From: Bacteroidota bacterium
GTDB taxonomy: Bacteria > Bacteroidota > Bacteroidia > UBA7662 > CANHCV01
Reading direction: 5' to 3'
NCBI GenBank assembly: GCA_947459245.1
Contig: CANHCV010000019.1
Coordinates: 1-39,532, forward strand
DNA length: 39,532 nt
A program made the translations under genes and the position numbers. The notes below the pieces were generated by a model. It saw nothing but the letters and a program-made list of their open reading frames with translations. It did not search any database and was not told the origin of the DNA. This document shows, piece by piece, positions 3,634 through 10,816 of this stretch; the stretch's first letter is position 1; each line of letters opens with the position of its first letter.

Positions 3634-3719
3634 CCCTAAAACCAAAATTTTCTACAGTTCATTTTAAAGGTGGAAAACATTTCATCTAGAAAAGATTCGC
3701 AAAGGTGGAAATGATTGAT

Positions 3720-3727
3720 TTTCTTTG
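3720..3727 (+). promoter_or_regulatory. Possible -7 box for the aminopeptidase gene
   Basis: TTTCTTTG differs from the TAnnTTTG consensus by one base and lies 22 nt before the chosen ATG at 3750. No convincing -33 TTG is placed 19-21 nt upstream, so the call is weak. It does argue against translation starting at the earlier in-frame ATG at 3705, which would precede the transcript start. Confidence 0.4.
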
Positions 3728-3749
3728 CAGAAACAAACATTATCAACCC

Positions 3750-5048
3750 ATGCGTCAACAACCCCTTCCCGCTGAAACATTTGTGGATAACCGCAAAAGG
3801 TTCGTAAACCATCTCCCTAAAAATGCCATCGCCATCTTTTTTTCCAACGAAGTGGTCGTTCGAAATGGCGACCAAACATATTGGCCCTACCGTCAGAATT
3901 CCGAGTTCTACTGGCTTACCGGAATTCAACAAGAAAACGCTACCCTTATCCTCTACCCCGACGCTCCCCTTCCAGAAATGCGAGAAATGTTGTTCATTAC
4001 AGAAACCAACGAACACATCGTTACCTGGGAAGGATATAAATTAACCATGGAAGAAGCCCGAAGTCAATCTGGCATTTCTACCGTTCATTGGAGCGACAAA
4101 GCAGATGGAATGATGCGTCAGATGATGGGATTTGCTTCCACTTGCTTTTTGAACACCAACGAAAACGACCGCACTCCCTCCTTTCCCCAATCTCTCGAAC
4201 ACCGAATGTCGGCCAAAATCAGGTCCGAATTTCCCCTACACACCTTTGGCCGCGCTTCCGAAATCCTTCGGAAAGAACGCGCTGTTCACTCCCATCACGA
4301 AATCGATGCCATGCGCAAAGCCATCTCTCTTACCAAAGAAGGATTGTTGCTTGCCATGAAATCCATTCGCCCCGGAATGATGGAATACGAAATCGAAGGA
4401 TTGCTCCAAGGCTTCTACGTCTCCAAAGGCGCCAAAGGTTTTTCCTTCGAGCCCATCGTAGCCGGTGGCGCCAATGCTTGCGTCTTGCACTACGTTACCA
4501 ACGATCGACCCCTTTTGGATGGTGACCTCCTCCTCCTCGACCACGGAACCGAATACAACATGTACTGTTCCGATCTTACGCGCTGTTTCCCCGTGAATGG
4601 AACGTTTACTCCTCGACAAAAAGAAGTGTACAATGCGGTTCTTCGGGTGATGCGCCAAGCACGTGAATTGCTGCATACGGGTAATTCTTTGAACGACTAC
4701 AACACCCAAGCTGCACTCATCATGGAAGCTGAATTGTTGTCATTAGGACTTATTTCCTCCGATGATATCAAAAACCAGAATCCTGCGTGGCCGGCCTATA
4801 AAAAATACTTCCCACATGGAACGGGCCACTTCCTCGGCATCGACATTCACGACATCGGCGAACGGTATTCCAAGCTTCAACCGGGCATGGTGATCACCAA
4901 TGAACCTGGAATTTACATCAAAGAAGAAGGAATCGGAATTCGAATTGAAAATGATATTTTGATTACTGAAAACGGACCGGTTGACTTGATGTCTGATTTC
5001 CCCATTGAAGTGGATGAAATCGAGCAAATCATGCGCGAAGGAAAGTGA
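3750..5048 (+). CDS. pepP: Xaa-Pro aminopeptidase (M24B family)
   Basis: The enzyme removes an N-terminal residue preceding proline and is a cytosolic dinuclear metallopeptidase. The 432-residue product has the creatinase-like N-terminal domain (FFSNEVVVRNGDQTY, then FYWLTGI) and a pita-bread C-terminal domain. The five expected metal ligands are all present: D264 (LLLLDHGTEY), D275 (CSDLTRCF), H360 (PHGTGHFLG), E385 (VITNEPGIYI) and E400 (GIRIENDILI). I chose the ATG at 3750, which gives the usual MRQQPLPAETFVDNR start; the earlier ATG at 3705 adds 15 residues and overlaps the putative promoter. It stands alone between the ribosomal operon and the restriction gene. Confidence 0.93.
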   Translation: MRQQPLPAETFVDNRKRFVNHLPKNAIAIFFSNEVVVRNGDQTYWPYRQNSEFYWLTGIQQENATLILYPDAPLPEMREMLFITETNEHIVTWEGYKLTMEEARSQSGISTVHWSDKADGMMRQMMGFASTCFLNTNENDRTPSFPQSLEHRMSAKIRSEFPLHTFGRASEILRKERAVHSHHEIDAMRKAISLTKEGLLLAMKSIRPGMMEYEIEGLLQGFYVSKGAKGFSFEPIVAGGANACVLHYVTNDRPLLDGDLLLLDHGTEYNMYCSDLTRCFPVNGTFTPRQKEVYNAVLRVMRQARELLHTGNSLNDYNTQAALIMEAELLSLGLISSDDIKNQNPAWPAYKKYFPHGTGHFLGIDIHDIGERYSKLQPGMVITNEPGIYIKEEGIGIRIENDILITENGPVDLMSDFPIEVDEIEQIMREGK

Positions 5049-5112
5049 ACATTGCAAACGAAAAACTTTACGATAGCCAACAAGAAAACAACCAATAACA
5101 AACGGAAAAAGA

Positions 5113-8031
5113 ATGGCATTAAGTTGGAACGAAATAAAAGAAAGAGCACTAAAATTCTCCAAAGAATGGGCAGGTACTTCCAATGAAGAAGCTGATGCAA
5201 AACCATTTTTGGTTGAATTCTTTAACGTATTCGGCATTTCAAGCAAACGAGTTTCGACCTTTGAACACCGAGTTAAGAAACTAAACAATAAAGATGGTTA
5301 CATCGACCTGCTTTGGAAAGGAACCATTTTAATTGAAATGAAAAGTCGGGGCAAAAACCTTGACAAAGCCTATTCACAAGCCATTGAATACACGCACGGA
5401 CTTAAAGAACATGAACTGCCGAAATACATTCTCATTTCAGACTTTGAGAACTTCCGTCTTTACGACCTAGAAGAAAACAAATCGGTTGAGTTCAAACTCA
5501 GCAACCTAGTTAAAAACGTTCAACATTTTGGGTACATTTTGGGTTGTGAAAAAAAAGTTTTCAAAGAGCAAGACCCGGCCAACATCAAAGCCGCCGAGTT
5601 GATGGGCAAACTTCACGACCGATTGGAAGAAATTGGATATACCGGACACCCACTGGAAGTTTACCTGGTTCGTATTCTATTCTGCTTGTTTGCCGAAGAC
5701 ACGTCTATTTTCAACAAACAACAGTTTCAAGAATATATTGAACAACGCACCAATATTGACGGAAGCGACCTTGCCGCTAAATTGCAAGAGTTGTTTCAAG
5801 TTCTAAACACTCCTAAAGAAAACCGATTTAAAAACCTTGACGAACAATTAGCCGACTTTCCGTATGTAAACGGAAAATTGTTTGAAGAAATGTTGCCAAC
5901 GGCAAGTTTCGACAGCAGTATGCGCCAAGCATTATTGAATTGTTGTTACATCGATTGGAGTAAAATTTCGCCTGCCATTTTCGGTTCCATGTTTCAAAGC
6001 GTCATGAATCCGAAAGAACGCAGAAACTTAGGAGCCCATTACACCAGCGAAACCAATATTTTAAAACTGATCAAACCACTTTTCTTGGACGACCTTTGGA
6101 AAGAATTTGATTCGGTTAATCATGATCCTACGAAGCTTACTAGGTTCCACAATAAGCTCGCCAGCTTGAAATTCCTTGACCCGGCTTGTGGCTGTGGCAA
6201 TTTTTTGATTATTACTTATCGGGAATTAAGATTACTTGAATTTAAAGTAATTCTCGCTTTGCAAAAATTAAATCTTAGATTTCATGGAATGGAATTTTTA
6301 GACATTTCATTGTTTTTTAGAGTAAATGTTGATCAGTTTTATGGCATTGAATACGAAGAGTTTCCTTCCAGAATTGCTGAGGTTGCCATGTGGCTGATCG
6401 ACCACCAAATGAATATGTATTGCAGTATTGAAACAGGTGAAAAATTGTTTAGAATTCCACTTATTAAATCTGCAAAAATTATCAGTGGCGATGCGCTTGA
6501 CATGAAATGGGGTAATTTGCTTTCAGAGCACAATTCAATTAATATTGATGCTAACGAAGCTGAAATAATTATTAATTCAAAATTAGAAGAACCTAAAGTT
6601 AAATTCGGAACAATTAAATTAAGGGTTGAACGATTCAAAATAGTTGATGAATTCTCAGAAATAAAACCCGATACAAAATTTGATTACATTTTAGGAAATC
6701 CGCCATTTATTGGTTCTAAGATAATGAGCCAAAAACAAAGGGATTCCGTTGTAAAAGAATTTGACAATATTCAAGGCAGTGGAGTTTTAGACTATGTAAC
6801 AGCTTGGTATATGAAAGCTGCAAAATATATTCAAGGCACCAAAACTAAAGTAGCATTTGTTTCTACCAACTCCATTGTACAAGGCGAACAAACGAGCATT
6901 CTTTGGGGTCAAATGCTCAATAAATACAAAATCAAAATTCACTTTGCACACCGAACTTTTAAATGGAGCAACGAAGCCAAAGGAAATGCAGCCGTTTATT
7001 GTGTGATAGTTGGCTTCGCCAACTACGACACCGCAAACAAGAGCATTTTTGAGTATGAAGATATAAAAGGAGAAGCACACGAAATAAAAGCTAAAAATAT
7101 CAATCCGTATTTGGTTGATGCAAAAGATATTCTCATTGGCAAACGAAGAAAACCAATTTGTAATGTACCTGAAATATCTTTTGGAAGTATGCCAAATGAT
7201 GGCGGCAACTTCTTATTTACAGACGAAGAAAAAGATGAATTTGTGGCAAAAGAACCAAATTCAAAAAAGTTTTTTAAACCACTCATTTCTGCTCACGAAT
7301 TTCTAAATGGTCATAAACGTTGGTGTTTATGGCTAAAAAATGCAAATCCGACAGACCTAAAAGAAGCAAAACTCGTAACTGAACGAGTTGAAAATGTAAG
7401 AAAACTAAGAGCCGAAAGCACAAGACAAGCCACACAAAAACTTGCAGCATTTCCTACTTTATTTGGAGAAGACCGACAACCAAAGAGTGACTATATTTTA
7501 ATTCCAAGAGTGTCTTCTGAAAATAGAAAATATATTCCAATGGGTTTCTTTGATGATAATTTCATAGCAAGTGATACTTGTTTATTTATTGAAGGTGCTA
7601 AACTCTATCATTTTGGAATATTAATGTCTAGCATTCATATGGCTTGGGTTCGGACCGTTTGCGGTCGCTTAAAAAGTGATTATCGCTATTCAAATGAAAT
7701 AGTTTACAATAACTATCCTTGGCCAGAAAATCCCTCAGAAAAGCAAACCAAAGCCATAGAAACAGCAGCACAAAAAGTATTGGATGCAAGACAGCAATTT
7801 CCTAACAGTTCACTTGCCGACCTTTACGATCCGTTGACAATGCCACCTGCTTTAATCAAAGCACACTACGAACTTGACAAAGCCGTTGACTTGGCCTACA
7901 GACCGCAAGCATTTACCAGTGAAGCCAACAGAATGGTGTTTTTATTTGAACTTTACGAAAAATACACGGCAAATTTGTTTACCAAAGAGAAAACTAAAAG
8001 GATTAAAAAAACAACAGCGGTACAAGGTTAA
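5113..8031 (+). CDS. Type IIL (MmeI-like) restriction-modification enzyme, endonuclease and methyltransferase in one chain
   Basis: MmeI-family enzymes methylate adenine on one strand of an asymmetric site and cut about 20 bp away. The 972-residue product shows the full layout. An N-terminal PD-(D/E)XK nuclease has D65-x9-E75-x-K77 (the YIDLLW and IEMKS segments), the same spacing I recall for MmeI D70/E80/K82. A helical linker follows, with a LGAHYTSE motif at 307-313. The Rossmann methyltransferase has motif I DPACGCGNFL (355-364) and motif IV NPPF (529-532). A target-recognition region ends in VRTVCGRLKSDYRYS and NNYPWPE, followed by a C-terminal domain. A lysine/asparagine-rich stretch of about 50 residues precedes motif IV. 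The gene is AT-richer and uses codons differently from its neighbours, and no other restriction genes flank it, all consistent with transfer. The recognition sequence cannot be read from this. Confidence 0.9.
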   Translation: MALSWNEIKERALKFSKEWAGTSNEEADAKPFLVEFFNVFGISSKRVSTFEHRVKKLNNKDGYIDLLWKGTILIEMKSRGKNLDKAYSQAIEYTHGLKEHELPKYILISDFENFRLYDLEENKSVEFKLSNLVKNVQHFGYILGCEKKVFKEQDPANIKAAELMGKLHDRLEEIGYTGHPLEVYLVRILFCLFAEDTSIFNKQQFQEYIEQRTNIDGSDLAAKLQELFQVLNTPKENRFKNLDEQLADFPYVNGKLFEEMLPTASFDSSMRQALLNCCYIDWSKISPAIFGSMFQSVMNPKERRNLGAHYTSETNILKLIKPLFLDDLWKEFDSVNHDPTKLTRFHNKLASLKFLDPACGCGNFLIITYRELRLLEFKVILALQKLNLRFHGMEFLDISLFFRVNVDQFYGIEYEEFPSRIAEVAMWLIDHQMNMYCSIETGEKLFRIPLIKSAKIISGDALDMKWGNLLSEHNSINIDANEAEIIINSKLEEPKVKFGTIKLRVERFKIVDEFSEIKPDTKFDYILGNPPFIGSKIMSQKQRDSVVKEFDNIQGSGVLDYVTAWYMKAAKYIQGTKTKVAFVSTNSIVQGEQTSILWGQMLNKYKIKIHFAHRTFKWSNEAKGNAAVYCVIVGFANYDTANKSIFEYEDIKGEAHEIKAKNINPYLVDAKDILIGKRRKPICNVPEISFGSMPNDGGNFLFTDEEKDEFVAKEPNSKKFFKPLISAHEFLNGHKRWCLWLKNANPTDLKEAKLVTERVENVRKLRAESTRQATQKLAAFPTLFGEDRQPKSDYILIPRVSSENRKYIPMGFFDDNFIASDTCLFIEGAKLYHFGILMSSIHMAWVRTVCGRLKSDYRYSNEIVYNNYPWPENPSEKQTKAIETAAQKVLDARQQFPNSSLADLYDPLTMPPALIKAHYELDKAVDLAYRPQAFTSEANRMVFLFELYEKYTANLFTKEKTKRIKKTTAVQG

Positions 8032-8057
8032 AAACCTTCGAAAAACAAGAACGCCAG

Positions 8058-8141
8058 CACCTAACAGCGGCTTGGCTTAAGGGCGGGTTCAGTGTTTCTT
8101 AGGCCAGTTTTGTGGTAAAAATCTGCCACTACGCCAAGCGA
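8058..8141. repeat. Bulged-hairpin element with attC-like architecture
   Basis: Twenty-six nt after the restriction gene stop lies an imperfect inverted repeat. A 7-bp arm GCTTGGC (8070-8076) pairs with GCCAAGC (8133-8139). A 5x5 unpaired spacer follows (8077-8081 against 8128-8132), then a second short stem, GGCGG (8082-8086) with CTGCC (8123-8127, one G-T pair), and a terminal loop of about 36 nt. The left edge holds ACCTAAC (8059-8065), which fits the RYYYAAC integron core site; no matching GTTRRRY is seen on the right, so the element may be truncated or be another repeat type. It could also act as a terminator between the two converging genes. Confidence 0.5.
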
Positions 8142-8150
8142 CCAAAAGAT

Positions 8151-10166
8151 TCAATCCCAAGGAATTTTAGGTCCTTCGGGAATTAAAAACCAAACCTTTC
8201 CCCCACCTGCAGGTAATTTTACGTGTTCGGTGGGGGAATTTATTTTCTCTCCCGTTAATTGAAATTGATCCGGTTGATTTTGCCAATCTCCCAAATCGGT
8301 AAATACAAATGCCTTGACCGAATCCCATCCAAGGAAATCCCAATTCCACTCCACCTCCCTTGCTTGGGTGCCGTTTACTGCCGACACCATCCAAACTCCA
8401 TTGTAAAACTTTCTTGCCACCACCACCGTTTTCCCCACATCGGCCACCAAGACTTTCGACTCTGCGACTTCGGTGCTAAACAACCGAAAAAACTGCTGCC
8501 ATTCGGCGGATTTTTGATAATTTTCGAATCGATCGGCAGCCATTTGCATGGGCGAATACAACACCCCCATCAGGGCCATTTGGTGAACCACGGTCGAATG
8601 CACCCTGCATTGCATTCCGGGTTGTTCTTGTCCGTTCCATGGGGTGTAATTTCCTCTGTTTTTAAACAGCACATCGGCCATTCCTGCAGTGTAATCCATT
8701 GGACCCGCTAAGCCGCGGGTAAAAGGGAGTAATACGGTATGATCGGGCGAGTTTCCGGCGCTCCAAGCCTCCCATTCCATTCCACGAACGCTTTCGCCGG
8801 TCATCAAATTAGGCCATGTTCGTTCCAAGCCCGTTGGTTGGATGCATTCGTGAACATCCAACATCAATCCGTATTGGGCAGCTTTCTCCACCACCTTTTG
8901 ATAATGTTGAACCATCCCCTGCCCAAATAGATGTTCTCCGATGGGACGAGCAGCACCGGCATAACCGGTTTTCACGTAACGAATTCCAAACTTGCGATAA
9001 AGGGAGAAAGCGGCATCCAATCGAGCTTCGAAAAATGGAGCATCTCCACCCGTTTCGCAGTGCGCGATCAGCGCAACTCCCTTCATTTGAGCATACCGAG
9101 CAACCTCTTTTAGATCGTAATCTTTTGCAGATGTAGTTTGATCAAAAACCGAATCTTGCCCCCACCGATCCCATCCGGTGTTCCATCCTTCCACCAATAC
9201 CCCTCCAATGCGATTGTAGGCGGCGAAATTGATGATCTGTTTGGCCCTCTCGGTGGTTGCTGCGTGACGCGGGCCGTCGGTCCAGGTGTGAGTACCTTGA
9301 TGCATTTCCCACCAAATCCCCACGTAAGAAATGGGCTTGATCCAACGGGTATCTGGAATTTTACAAGGTTCGTTCAAGGTTTTGATGACCGATGATTCCA
9401 GCAATTCTCCAGCGTGATCTCCGAATAATACCACCCGCCAAGGCGTTGTTACTTTTCGATGGAACCGCACCAAATCACCGTTTTTCCAAGGAACCAAATC
9501 GGTGGCAAAAACACCATTTGCATCTCGTTTGAGGGTCATTCTCGAATAATTCACCAAGCTTGCTTCGTGAACCGCCACATGAACTCCACTTGGCAAGCGA
9601 GTCGTGAATGGGGTATTCACCCAAGTCGCATCTTTCAGTGGGGTTTCTTGGAACACTTGTTCTTGGGTATTGTAATCGGCCCAGGCCCACCAAGCTGTCC
9701 CTTCGTTTCCGATATTTATCTGAGATTTTTCATGCTGAATTACTCCATCCTTTAACAGTTCAGTTCCATTCAAAACCATTCGAAAGGCCATGGCTCGATT
9801 AAACAGAGCGAAATCCACCGAAAGGGTTCCTAATTTCTCATTCTTGAAGTGAAACGAACCTTTTTGACATGGATCTGAAACGTCAATTTTTTGCCCCCAA
9901 GCAGCCATCCATTTGTTCTCCTTGTATTGAACAGGAGAACTGGAATGGTATTTCCACTCTTCCTTTTCAAATGCTTTGAGTTGAAGTGCTATTTGGGAGG
10001 AATGAAGAATGGTTCTACCTCTATATTCTAACTCGTAAACAAGAAGTGGTGCTTTATTTTCAACCCGAAGTTTTGTAGCACGATCAGGGGAAACGAGGGT
10101 AAAAACCTCTCCAAAAGAAACGGAAGAAAGTAAAGAAAGAAGGAGTAACGGAAGAAAACGCATCAT
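8151..10166 (-). CDS. Glycoside hydrolase family 97, SusB-like (probable inverting alpha-glucosidase), secreted
   Basis: GH97 enzymes hydrolyse alpha-glucosides or alpha-galactosides in the Bacteroidota periplasm. The 671-residue product has a signal peptide (MMRFLPLLLLSLLSSVSFG), an N-terminal beta-sandwich, and a catalytic barrel with WWEMHQGTHTW, VLVEGWNTGWD, AHCETGG, DVHE, GMEW and LPFTRGLAGPMDY. Glutamates E371, E440, E458 and E464 keep the spacings 69, 18 and 6 that I recall for SusB E439, E508, E526 and E532. KTGYAG (399-404) stands where retaining members have an aspartate nucleophile, so an inverting glucosidase is inferred. The ATG at 10166 overlaps the preceding stop (ATGA). An upstream in-frame start would add 24 charged residues and hide the signal peptide. 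No susC/susD pair is nearby. Confidence 0.88.
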   Translation of the reverse strand: MMRFLPLLLLSLLSSVSFGEVFTLVSPDRATKLRVENKAPLLVYELEYRGRTILHSSQIALQLKAFEKEEWKYHSSSPVQYKENKWMAAWGQKIDVSDPCQKGSFHFKNEKLGTLSVDFALFNRAMAFRMVLNGTELLKDGVIQHEKSQINIGNEGTAWWAWADYNTQEQVFQETPLKDATWVNTPFTTRLPSGVHVAVHEASLVNYSRMTLKRDANGVFATDLVPWKNGDLVRFHRKVTTPWRVVLFGDHAGELLESSVIKTLNEPCKIPDTRWIKPISYVGIWWEMHQGTHTWTDGPRHAATTERAKQIINFAAYNRIGGVLVEGWNTGWDRWGQDSVFDQTTSAKDYDLKEVARYAQMKGVALIAHCETGGDAPFFEARLDAAFSLYRKFGIRYVKTGYAGAARPIGEHLFGQGMVQHYQKVVEKAAQYGLMLDVHECIQPTGLERTWPNLMTGESVRGMEWEAWSAGNSPDHTVLLPFTRGLAGPMDYTAGMADVLFKNRGNYTPWNGQEQPGMQCRVHSTVVHQMALMGVLYSPMQMAADRFENYQKSAEWQQFFRLFSTEVAESKVLVADVGKTVVVARKFYNGVWMVSAVNGTQAREVEWNWDFLGWDSVKAFVFTDLGDWQNQPDQFQLTGEKINSPTEHVKLPAGGGKVWFLIPEGPKIPWD

Positions 10167-10816
10167 TCCAAAGCTCCGCGTTTGGGACCTTCGTTTTTCG
10201 GAGTTGTTTGGTTTTTCACATCTCTTGCCTTTTGCCAAGGTGAGGACAAGTTGGAGCCAAAAACACCGTTGTTCAGCATTTTTGGATTTAACCCCTCTGG
10301 AAGTCCGGATGGATAACGGGCAAATTGGTGTAAATCTTCTTTGGGCAAGTCAAATTCGTTGTATTGGTAAGCCCTGCTTCCTGCGATGGCCACGGAACCT
10401 GTTACGATTAAATTGACGGGAAAAGAAATGACCGAAATCAATCCGTGTGCAAACGTAATCGGGGCTAAGAGCATCATTTTCGCGTAATTTTTTGACCGTG
10501 CGTACTTGATTCGGTAGGTTTCTAAATCTTTAAGATGCATGAAATAAAAGTTACTGGAGTCGATTTTCACCAGGTTTTCTTGGTGATCTCTAAAGCCCCA
10601 GGACACCACTTGCGACTTGTCGAAATTCTGAAGCACCCAAATTCCGGAATCGTTTGCCGCAATGAGTTCGCCTTTCAATGCATTTCCAAATTGGTCATTG
10701 GCTTTGATTTGAGCACCATAGTAATTGTAGTTCATGGAATCGTACCTTGGCAGCACCTTGGAACCTGCGCAACTGCTAAGAATCAGCAGCAATAAGAAAA
10801 TTTTAACGGCCTTCAT
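10163..10816 (-). CDS. Lipoprotein of unknown function with a central hydrophobic segment
   Basis: I do not recognise this 217-residue protein. It starts MKAVKIFLLLLILSSC, with the lipobox cysteine at residue 16, so it is probably a lipoprotein. After a polar region (GNALKGELIAANDSGIWVL and VKIDSSNFYFMHLKDL) comes a long apolar stretch, about residues 112-146, that could span or anchor in a membrane. The tail is polar and Lys/Asn-rich. The ATG at 10816 overlaps the end of the upstream lipoprotein gene by 14 nt, and its TGA overlaps the GH97 start (ATGA), so the three genes are likely co-translated. An earlier in-frame start would bury the lipobox and was rejected. Confidence 0.75.
   Translation of the reverse strand: MKAVKIFLLLLILSSCAGSKVLPRYDSMNYNYYGAQIKANDQFGNALKGELIAANDSGIWVLQNFDKSQVVSWGFRDHQENLVKIDSSNFYFMHLKDLETYRIKYARSKNYAKMMLLAPITFAHGLISVISFPVNLIVTGSVAIAGSRAYQYNEFDLPKEDLHQFARYPSGLPEGLNPKMLNNGVFGSNLSSPWQKARDVKNQTTPKNEGPKRGALE

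Follow-up and report, generated by a model that had tools for sequence, protein, structure and literature searches.

The closest described systems to the one considered here are integrons (IntI/attI/attC), which one definition restricts to tyrosine recombinases carrying an IntI-specific additional domain near patch III (PMC9668308). The IntegronFinder 2.0 survey found almost no complete integrons in Bacteroidetes, with one in Salinibacter ruber (PMC9024848). Insertion of integron cassettes at genomic attG sites has also been described (Loot et al. 2024, as cited in PMC12901181). In Riemerella anatipestifer, aph(3')-IVb enters the chromosome without homology, always bringing along untranslated regions of 27 bp (5') and 140 bp (3'); the authors noted an attC-like fold in the 3' part, found no mobile element near the integration site and gave the mechanism as unknown (PMC13148043, 2026). 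That study and the IntegronFinder 2.0 survey are the nearest published accounts. Our searches of the open-access literature found no account of the system itself.

We analysed a 39,532-nucleotide stretch of DNA from a Bacteroidota bacterium (the window), in which a bulged hairpin follows a restriction-modification gene. Positions 5048-8148 are, very probably, a single cassette sitting between two chromosomal genes at a non-array G/ATT site and belonging to a Bacteroidota integron-like gene-capture system with an Xer-like recombinase. The features concerned are listed below, with a slash at cuts and borders.

3705..5048, forward strand: left neighbour, an M24 peptidase gene (aminopeptidase P-like, Pfam), with its stop at the insertion point
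5048..8148, forward strand: inserted gene cassette of 3101 bp, with borders G5047/A5048 and G8148/A8149, without counterpart in the same-genus genome G001
5048..5060, forward strand: left cassette end, a degenerate start box AACAT and then TGCAAACG, in the register of MmeI cassettes elsewhere
5113..8031, forward strand: cargo, an MmeI-like type IIL restriction-modification protein of 972 aa (Pfam MmeI_N, MmeI_hel, MmeI_Mtase, MmeI_TRD and MmeI_C)
8056..8157, forward strand: attC-like recombination site, full match to covariance model R1 (29.2 bits, E 4.8e-5)
8057..8065, forward strand: R'' box GCACCTAAC of the attC-like site of the MmeI-like cassette
8070..8076, forward strand: L'' arm GCTTGGC, 7-bp pairing with 8133-8139; helix 2 of the family, covarying
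8077-8081 and 8128-8132: TTAAG and ACTAC, the 5x5 unpaired region
8082..8086, forward strand: 5' arm GGCGG of the inner stem, pairing with 8123-8127 with one G.T; helix 3, covarying in the family
8123..8127, forward strand: 3' arm CTGCC of the inner stem, pairing with 8082-8086
8133..8139, forward strand: L' arm GCCAAGC, pairing with 8070-8076
8148..8148, forward strand: predicted cut G/ATTC, after the G, 8 nt past L' and coinciding with the border between insert and flank relative to G001
8151..10238, reverse strand: right neighbour, a glycoside hydrolase family 97 (GH97) gene (Pfam)

In G001 the peptidase and GH97 genes are adjacent, reading GAAGGAAAATAACTCAATCCCAAGG, where the window reads GAAGGAAAGTG, the 3101 bp of insert and then ATTCAATCCCAAGG; the peptidase proteins of the two genomes are 92% identical. 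A second, more diverged genome of the same genus (G002) likewise lacks the insert. The clean empty site comes from G001 only, which counts against the cassette reading, and the left border has a one-base ambiguity (the A of the TGA stop). The right border is the G 8 nt past the L' arm, that is, the predicted cut, and lies outside any attC or attI sequence, as expected of a solitary cassette. An empty site together with a border at the predicted cut indicates that the MmeI-like gene and the hairpin came as one unit. By this comparison the hairpin is the right end of the inserted MmeI-like unit, a part of the insert rather than of the GH97 gene. The insertion resembles attG insertions, as PMC12901181 relates them from Loot et al. 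2024, in being a solitary cassette at a G/-type genomic position outside an array; relative to that account, it differs in recombinase family and is known from comparative genomics only.

The preliminary description of this locus had allowed for a terminator conserved with the GH97 gene, and the hairpin is missing from a same-genus genome that keeps that gene. More broadly, an ordinary intrinsic terminator, or an RNA hairpin conserved with its neighbour genes, would suit a position between convergent genes, where terminators are common, but the hairpin is absent where both neighbours are kept, no T-run follows it, and relatives of the same size with covarying arms lie at hundreds of places in many genomes. 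Its folding energy is also no better than that of shuffled sequence (z -0.18 as DNA and -0.62 as RNA). We regard this explanation as extremely improbable and as already disproved by the empty site, together with the matching of cassette boxes presented below. Since its energy is ordinary, energy alone gives the hairpin no support, and its significance comes from its relatives.

The 7-bp outer stem, 5x5 spacer, inner stem and long terminal loop first described are all present in the sequence, and ACCTAAC, which had been read as a core site, fits the 5' core (R''). The R' partner GTTAGGT is missing at the window hairpin, and in its place stands G/ATTCAAT, which is flanking target DNA. In most related sites the G at the cut position starts GTT, and the spacing of 8 nt between cut and L' is the same at C81, C66, L009, L011 and L016.

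Similar sites occur in the same genome (C81 and C66), on Bacteroidota plasmids and in viral contigs. The covariance model R1 was trained on 16 sites from plasmids and viral contigs, none of them from the host genome, in an alignment of about 138 nt. Bases pair in 91.5% of the cells of its 17 named pairs, and 49 cells have changed on both sides, involving 12 of the 17 pairs, compared with 15.0 in shuffles; sliding the alignment abolished this covariation signal. A covariance search with R1, the kind of test that the preliminary description had proposed, recovered the window hairpin as the sole match in the window, an out-of-sample match that supports its reading as an attC-like site. Over the whole genome the window site is weak (E 0.003), which counts against it. 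Eight matches in the host genome reach E <= 0.003, so the element is repeated, the condition that the preliminary description had set for its reading as a mobile family, and is not unique.

Taken from covariation and model together, the family has the R''/R' core AAC...GTT, paired L boxes, unpaired spacers and terminal structure of attC sites. It appears not to fit the REP/TnpA-REP class (short extragenic palindromes with a Y1 transposase and no cassette structure), against which stand its size of ~139 nt, its cassette-specific boxes and its linkage to a tyrosine recombinase. Searching plasmids with the window sequence alone gave one useful match (Empedobacter) and two weak ones (Klebsiella), and a consensus query led to resistance-plasmid arrays; the phage collection gave zero matches. 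L008 and L010, two of the first five viral-contig matches, look like coding sequence with a chance fit to a 17-base pattern, and L012 has no hairpin; these were set aside.

The borders of the units were examined through their start boxes. In 43 of 45 predicted cassettes the start box agrees with the cassette's own R'' in at least 5 of the 6 variable positions; the mean match is 5.67 of 6, compared with a permuted mean of 2.76 (sd 0.17, maximum 3.49, 10,000 permutations). This match appears to be the mark of units that were once circular, with the box carried by the unit. A discrete mobile unit is indicated by these matches, by the empty site and by the transfer of a single cassette in Riemerella (PMC13148043), and the earlier suggestion that such hairpins follow accessory genes in Bacteroidota and mark mobile cassettes is borne out.

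For the MmeI-like cassette, the predicted start box is GTTAGGTGC, the reverse complement of GCACCTAAC, and it precedes 8 of 80 MmeI homologues in other Bacteroidota. The left flanks before it are unrelated, in two cases (L076 and L112) it stands directly after an attC-like site, and in most of the 8 it is followed by GCAAGCG or a near variant. MmeI cassettes elsewhere begin G/TTAGGTGCAAGCG, and the window cassette, starting G/AACAT/TGCAAACG, is in register with the expected G/TTAGG/TGCAAGCG. Its left box shows 5 changes in 5 bases (AACAT versus TTAGG), which counts against the assignment and leaves this copy with ends that have ceased to match each other. A strict search for hairpins after the 80 homologues found almost nothing, and the few box matches indicate that most of them are not recognisably cassettes and that some are.

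Further solitary cassettes are found in the host genome on C69 and C66. The one at G000:C69:6561-7210 (L220:3062-3711) has a start box GTTATATGC that fits its R'' GCATATAAC, with no long ORF noted, and its empty-site comparison is blurred by another rearrangement at the locus. The one at G000:C66:250-3110 (L219) has two ORFs (410 and 435 aa) and lies inside a dispersed repeat, uninterrupted copies of which are empty sites within the same genome; GCACAAAG is present at both of its ends. We also observed a dispersed repeat of ~50-90 bp (L220:2797-2885) at many places in G000, G001 and G002; the host genome has over 20 copies, and the two same-genus relatives have about a dozen or more apiece.

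The preliminary description had also suggested looking for tyrosine recombinases, and the host genome encodes XerC, XerD and, on another contig (C84), an intact third one that is a candidate integrase. After it on C84 come an attI-like site, a Sel1-repeat-like gene, a short attC-like site and the contig end, and close relatives of it stand at the 5' end of 6 of 9 fetched arrays. In a profile search of 60 genomes the two groups separated, Int-like proteins scoring 189 bits or more and XerD no higher than 184. Among the matches listed, 14 Int-like genes lie within 4 kb of a site, always on the 5' side of an array of cassettes in the same orientation; as about half of these 14 had gone into the profile itself, the count free of this bias is about seven of seven. 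At least 14 of 52 Int-like copies have a site within 4 kb among the matches listed, many copies lying at contig ends, and none of 37 XerD control genes has a listed site within that distance. Genomes with the recombinase have a median of 7 sites and those without it 1 (Mann-Whitney p 3e-5, on counts that ignore phylogeny). Counting against this association, along with the Int-like copies that have no listed site within 4 kb, are 14 genomes that carry sites with no Int-like recombinase detected, possibly owing to incomplete assembly or to transfer from elsewhere.

An attI-like site lies next to the integrase, where the first cassette starts: in 7 loci this cassette begins 49-105 bp past the integrase stop, the box match is 9/9, and several attI-like sites have the upstream motif GGCG(G)GTATA..TA/GTT in common. 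The Int-like gene could instead be a passenger on units moved by host XerC/XerD or by an IS91-associated pair of tyrosine recombinase and transposase, as might be thought from Myroides plasmids, where IS91 and tyrosine-recombinase elements directly adjoin attC-like sites, and from the Riemerella chromosome, which took up a cassette with no mobile element found nearby by the authors (PMC13148043). The constant 5' position of the Int-like gene with its positioned attI, the absence of listed sites near the 37 XerD genes and the placement of the IS91-type recombinase on a separate deep branch (in a recombinase tree that IntI2 did not enter) make this very unlikely. In the Myroides elements (L023:7760-8130 and L024:2470-2733 and 5820-6075), the IS91 transposase and tyrosine recombinase meet the R'' box with a common end sequence, GGTTTAGTTCAAC, as if targeting or using the sites.

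We also considered that this is a true canonical integron whose IntI was missed by the tools. The layout of integrase, attI, attC array and G/TT cut is the same, and the integron-integrase model TIGR02249 gives the host integrase 209 bits; this score is below the curated cut-off of 265, and the interval from the lysine/arginine to the HxxR motif has ~40 residues fewer than that of IntI4 and IntI2, so that the IntI-specific domain is missing. That insert, present in IntI2, is absent in all aligned Int-like copies, and in alignment to IntI4 (2A3V) the Int-like protein has 21 residues where IntI4 has 63. A canonical integron is therefore unlikely, and the absent domain and the score below the cut-off explain why a system working like an integron is not filed as one. 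The system appears to be integron-like, with an Xer-like, non-IntI integrase.

Several features of the recombinase genes were recorded alongside. Array integrases L167, L169, L170, L172 and L215 have an N-terminal extension of ~75-95 aa, most such extensions carrying an RWSxxxKAWHxP-like motif; neither XerC/XerD nor IntI2 has the extension, nor do the divergently oriented integrases L174 and L168. The host integrase on C84 also lacks it. In both same-genus relatives the extension has stops, and it is only this region that is broken, the 302-aa core being open. Just upstream of the C84 integrase (L018:2040-2700) is a pair read by eye as HicB-like antitoxin and HicA-like, flanked by two ~130-bp near-copies of the integrase 5' region.

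The family is widespread. R1 has matches in 45 of 60 relatives, with up to 42 per genome, and in 78 of 148 genomes of the phylum at E <= 1e-5; in a control class outside Bacteroidota (that of a Hydromonas MAG), 0 of 94 genomes had a match. Of the Bacteroidota genomes sampled, about half or more thus have the cassette family, and in Bacteroidota the sites make long cassette arrays.

Compared with integrons, the Bacteroidota system has the same tyrosine recombinase gene, attI-like site and same-orientation cassettes ending in a folded imperfect palindrome, with an AAC...G/TT core and a cassette start complementary to its own R''. It differs in that the recombinase lacks the IntI-specific domain and often has the N-terminal extension, its gene is usually oriented with the cassettes and followed, after its stop codon, by attI, each cassette has its own matched box, of about 9 nt, and most sites measure ~139 nt and have, past the L stem, an internal loop of 4-5 nt.

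On this reading the working parts are the gene for an Xer-like tyrosine recombinase, an attI-like site shortly after it and head-to-tail cassettes, each ending in a folded attC-like site of ~139 nt. A free circular cassette would expose its folded attC-like site, the R box being formed by the start box joined to R''; the recombinase would cut after the G of G/TT, and the cassette would be joined to attI or to another attC; now and then it would enter a genomic G/ site and remain there as a solitary cassette, as in the window. The cassette borders, the match between start box and R'', the 5' recombinase, the attI position and the empty site can be read directly from the DNA; by analogy with integrons we infer cutting by the Int-like recombinase, a folded single-strand substrate and the existence of the circle.

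Resistance genes on plasmids are packaged in the same way. On the Riemerella plasmid pRCAD0416RA-1 the cassettes carry lnu(I), a toxin-antitoxin pair, an OXA gene, tet(X), estT, a phosphotransferase gene and aph(3')-IVb, and a similar tet(X)/estT site is found on a Proteus plasmid. We place the borders of the aph(3')-IVb cassette at 28 and 139 bp, with the same total as the published 27 and 140, and the published unit matches one cassette of the Bacteroidota attC-like family; unlike the present analysis, its authors proposed no integrase, family or arrays (PMC13148043). Plasmid pHH1107 (FJ012881) has TnpF, an Int-like recombinase 47.6% identical to that of the host, then a tet(X3) cassette that starts with the same bases as the Riemerella tet(X) cassette, and then an attC-like site; plasmid records annotate this protein only as TnpF or tyrosine recombinase.

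Bacteroidota probably have an integron system of their own, in which a separate Xer-like lineage lacking the IntI-specific domain recombines folded attC-like sites, with arrays across the phylum, and on which tet(X), estT, lnu, aph and related resistance genes originally travelled as cassettes before reaching Acinetobacter and Enterobacterales. A family present in half or more of the sampled genomes contrasts with the near absence of Bacteroidetes integrons from the IntegronFinder 2.0 survey (PMC9024848). It offers a candidate enzyme and site that could account for the so far puzzling uptake of resistance genes without homology by Riemerella, and explains the packaging of tet(X) and its neighbours. 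The comparisons indicate that restriction-modification genes move as cassettes too, and the system raises the question of how a recombinase lacking the IntI-specific domain could handle folded single-strand sites.
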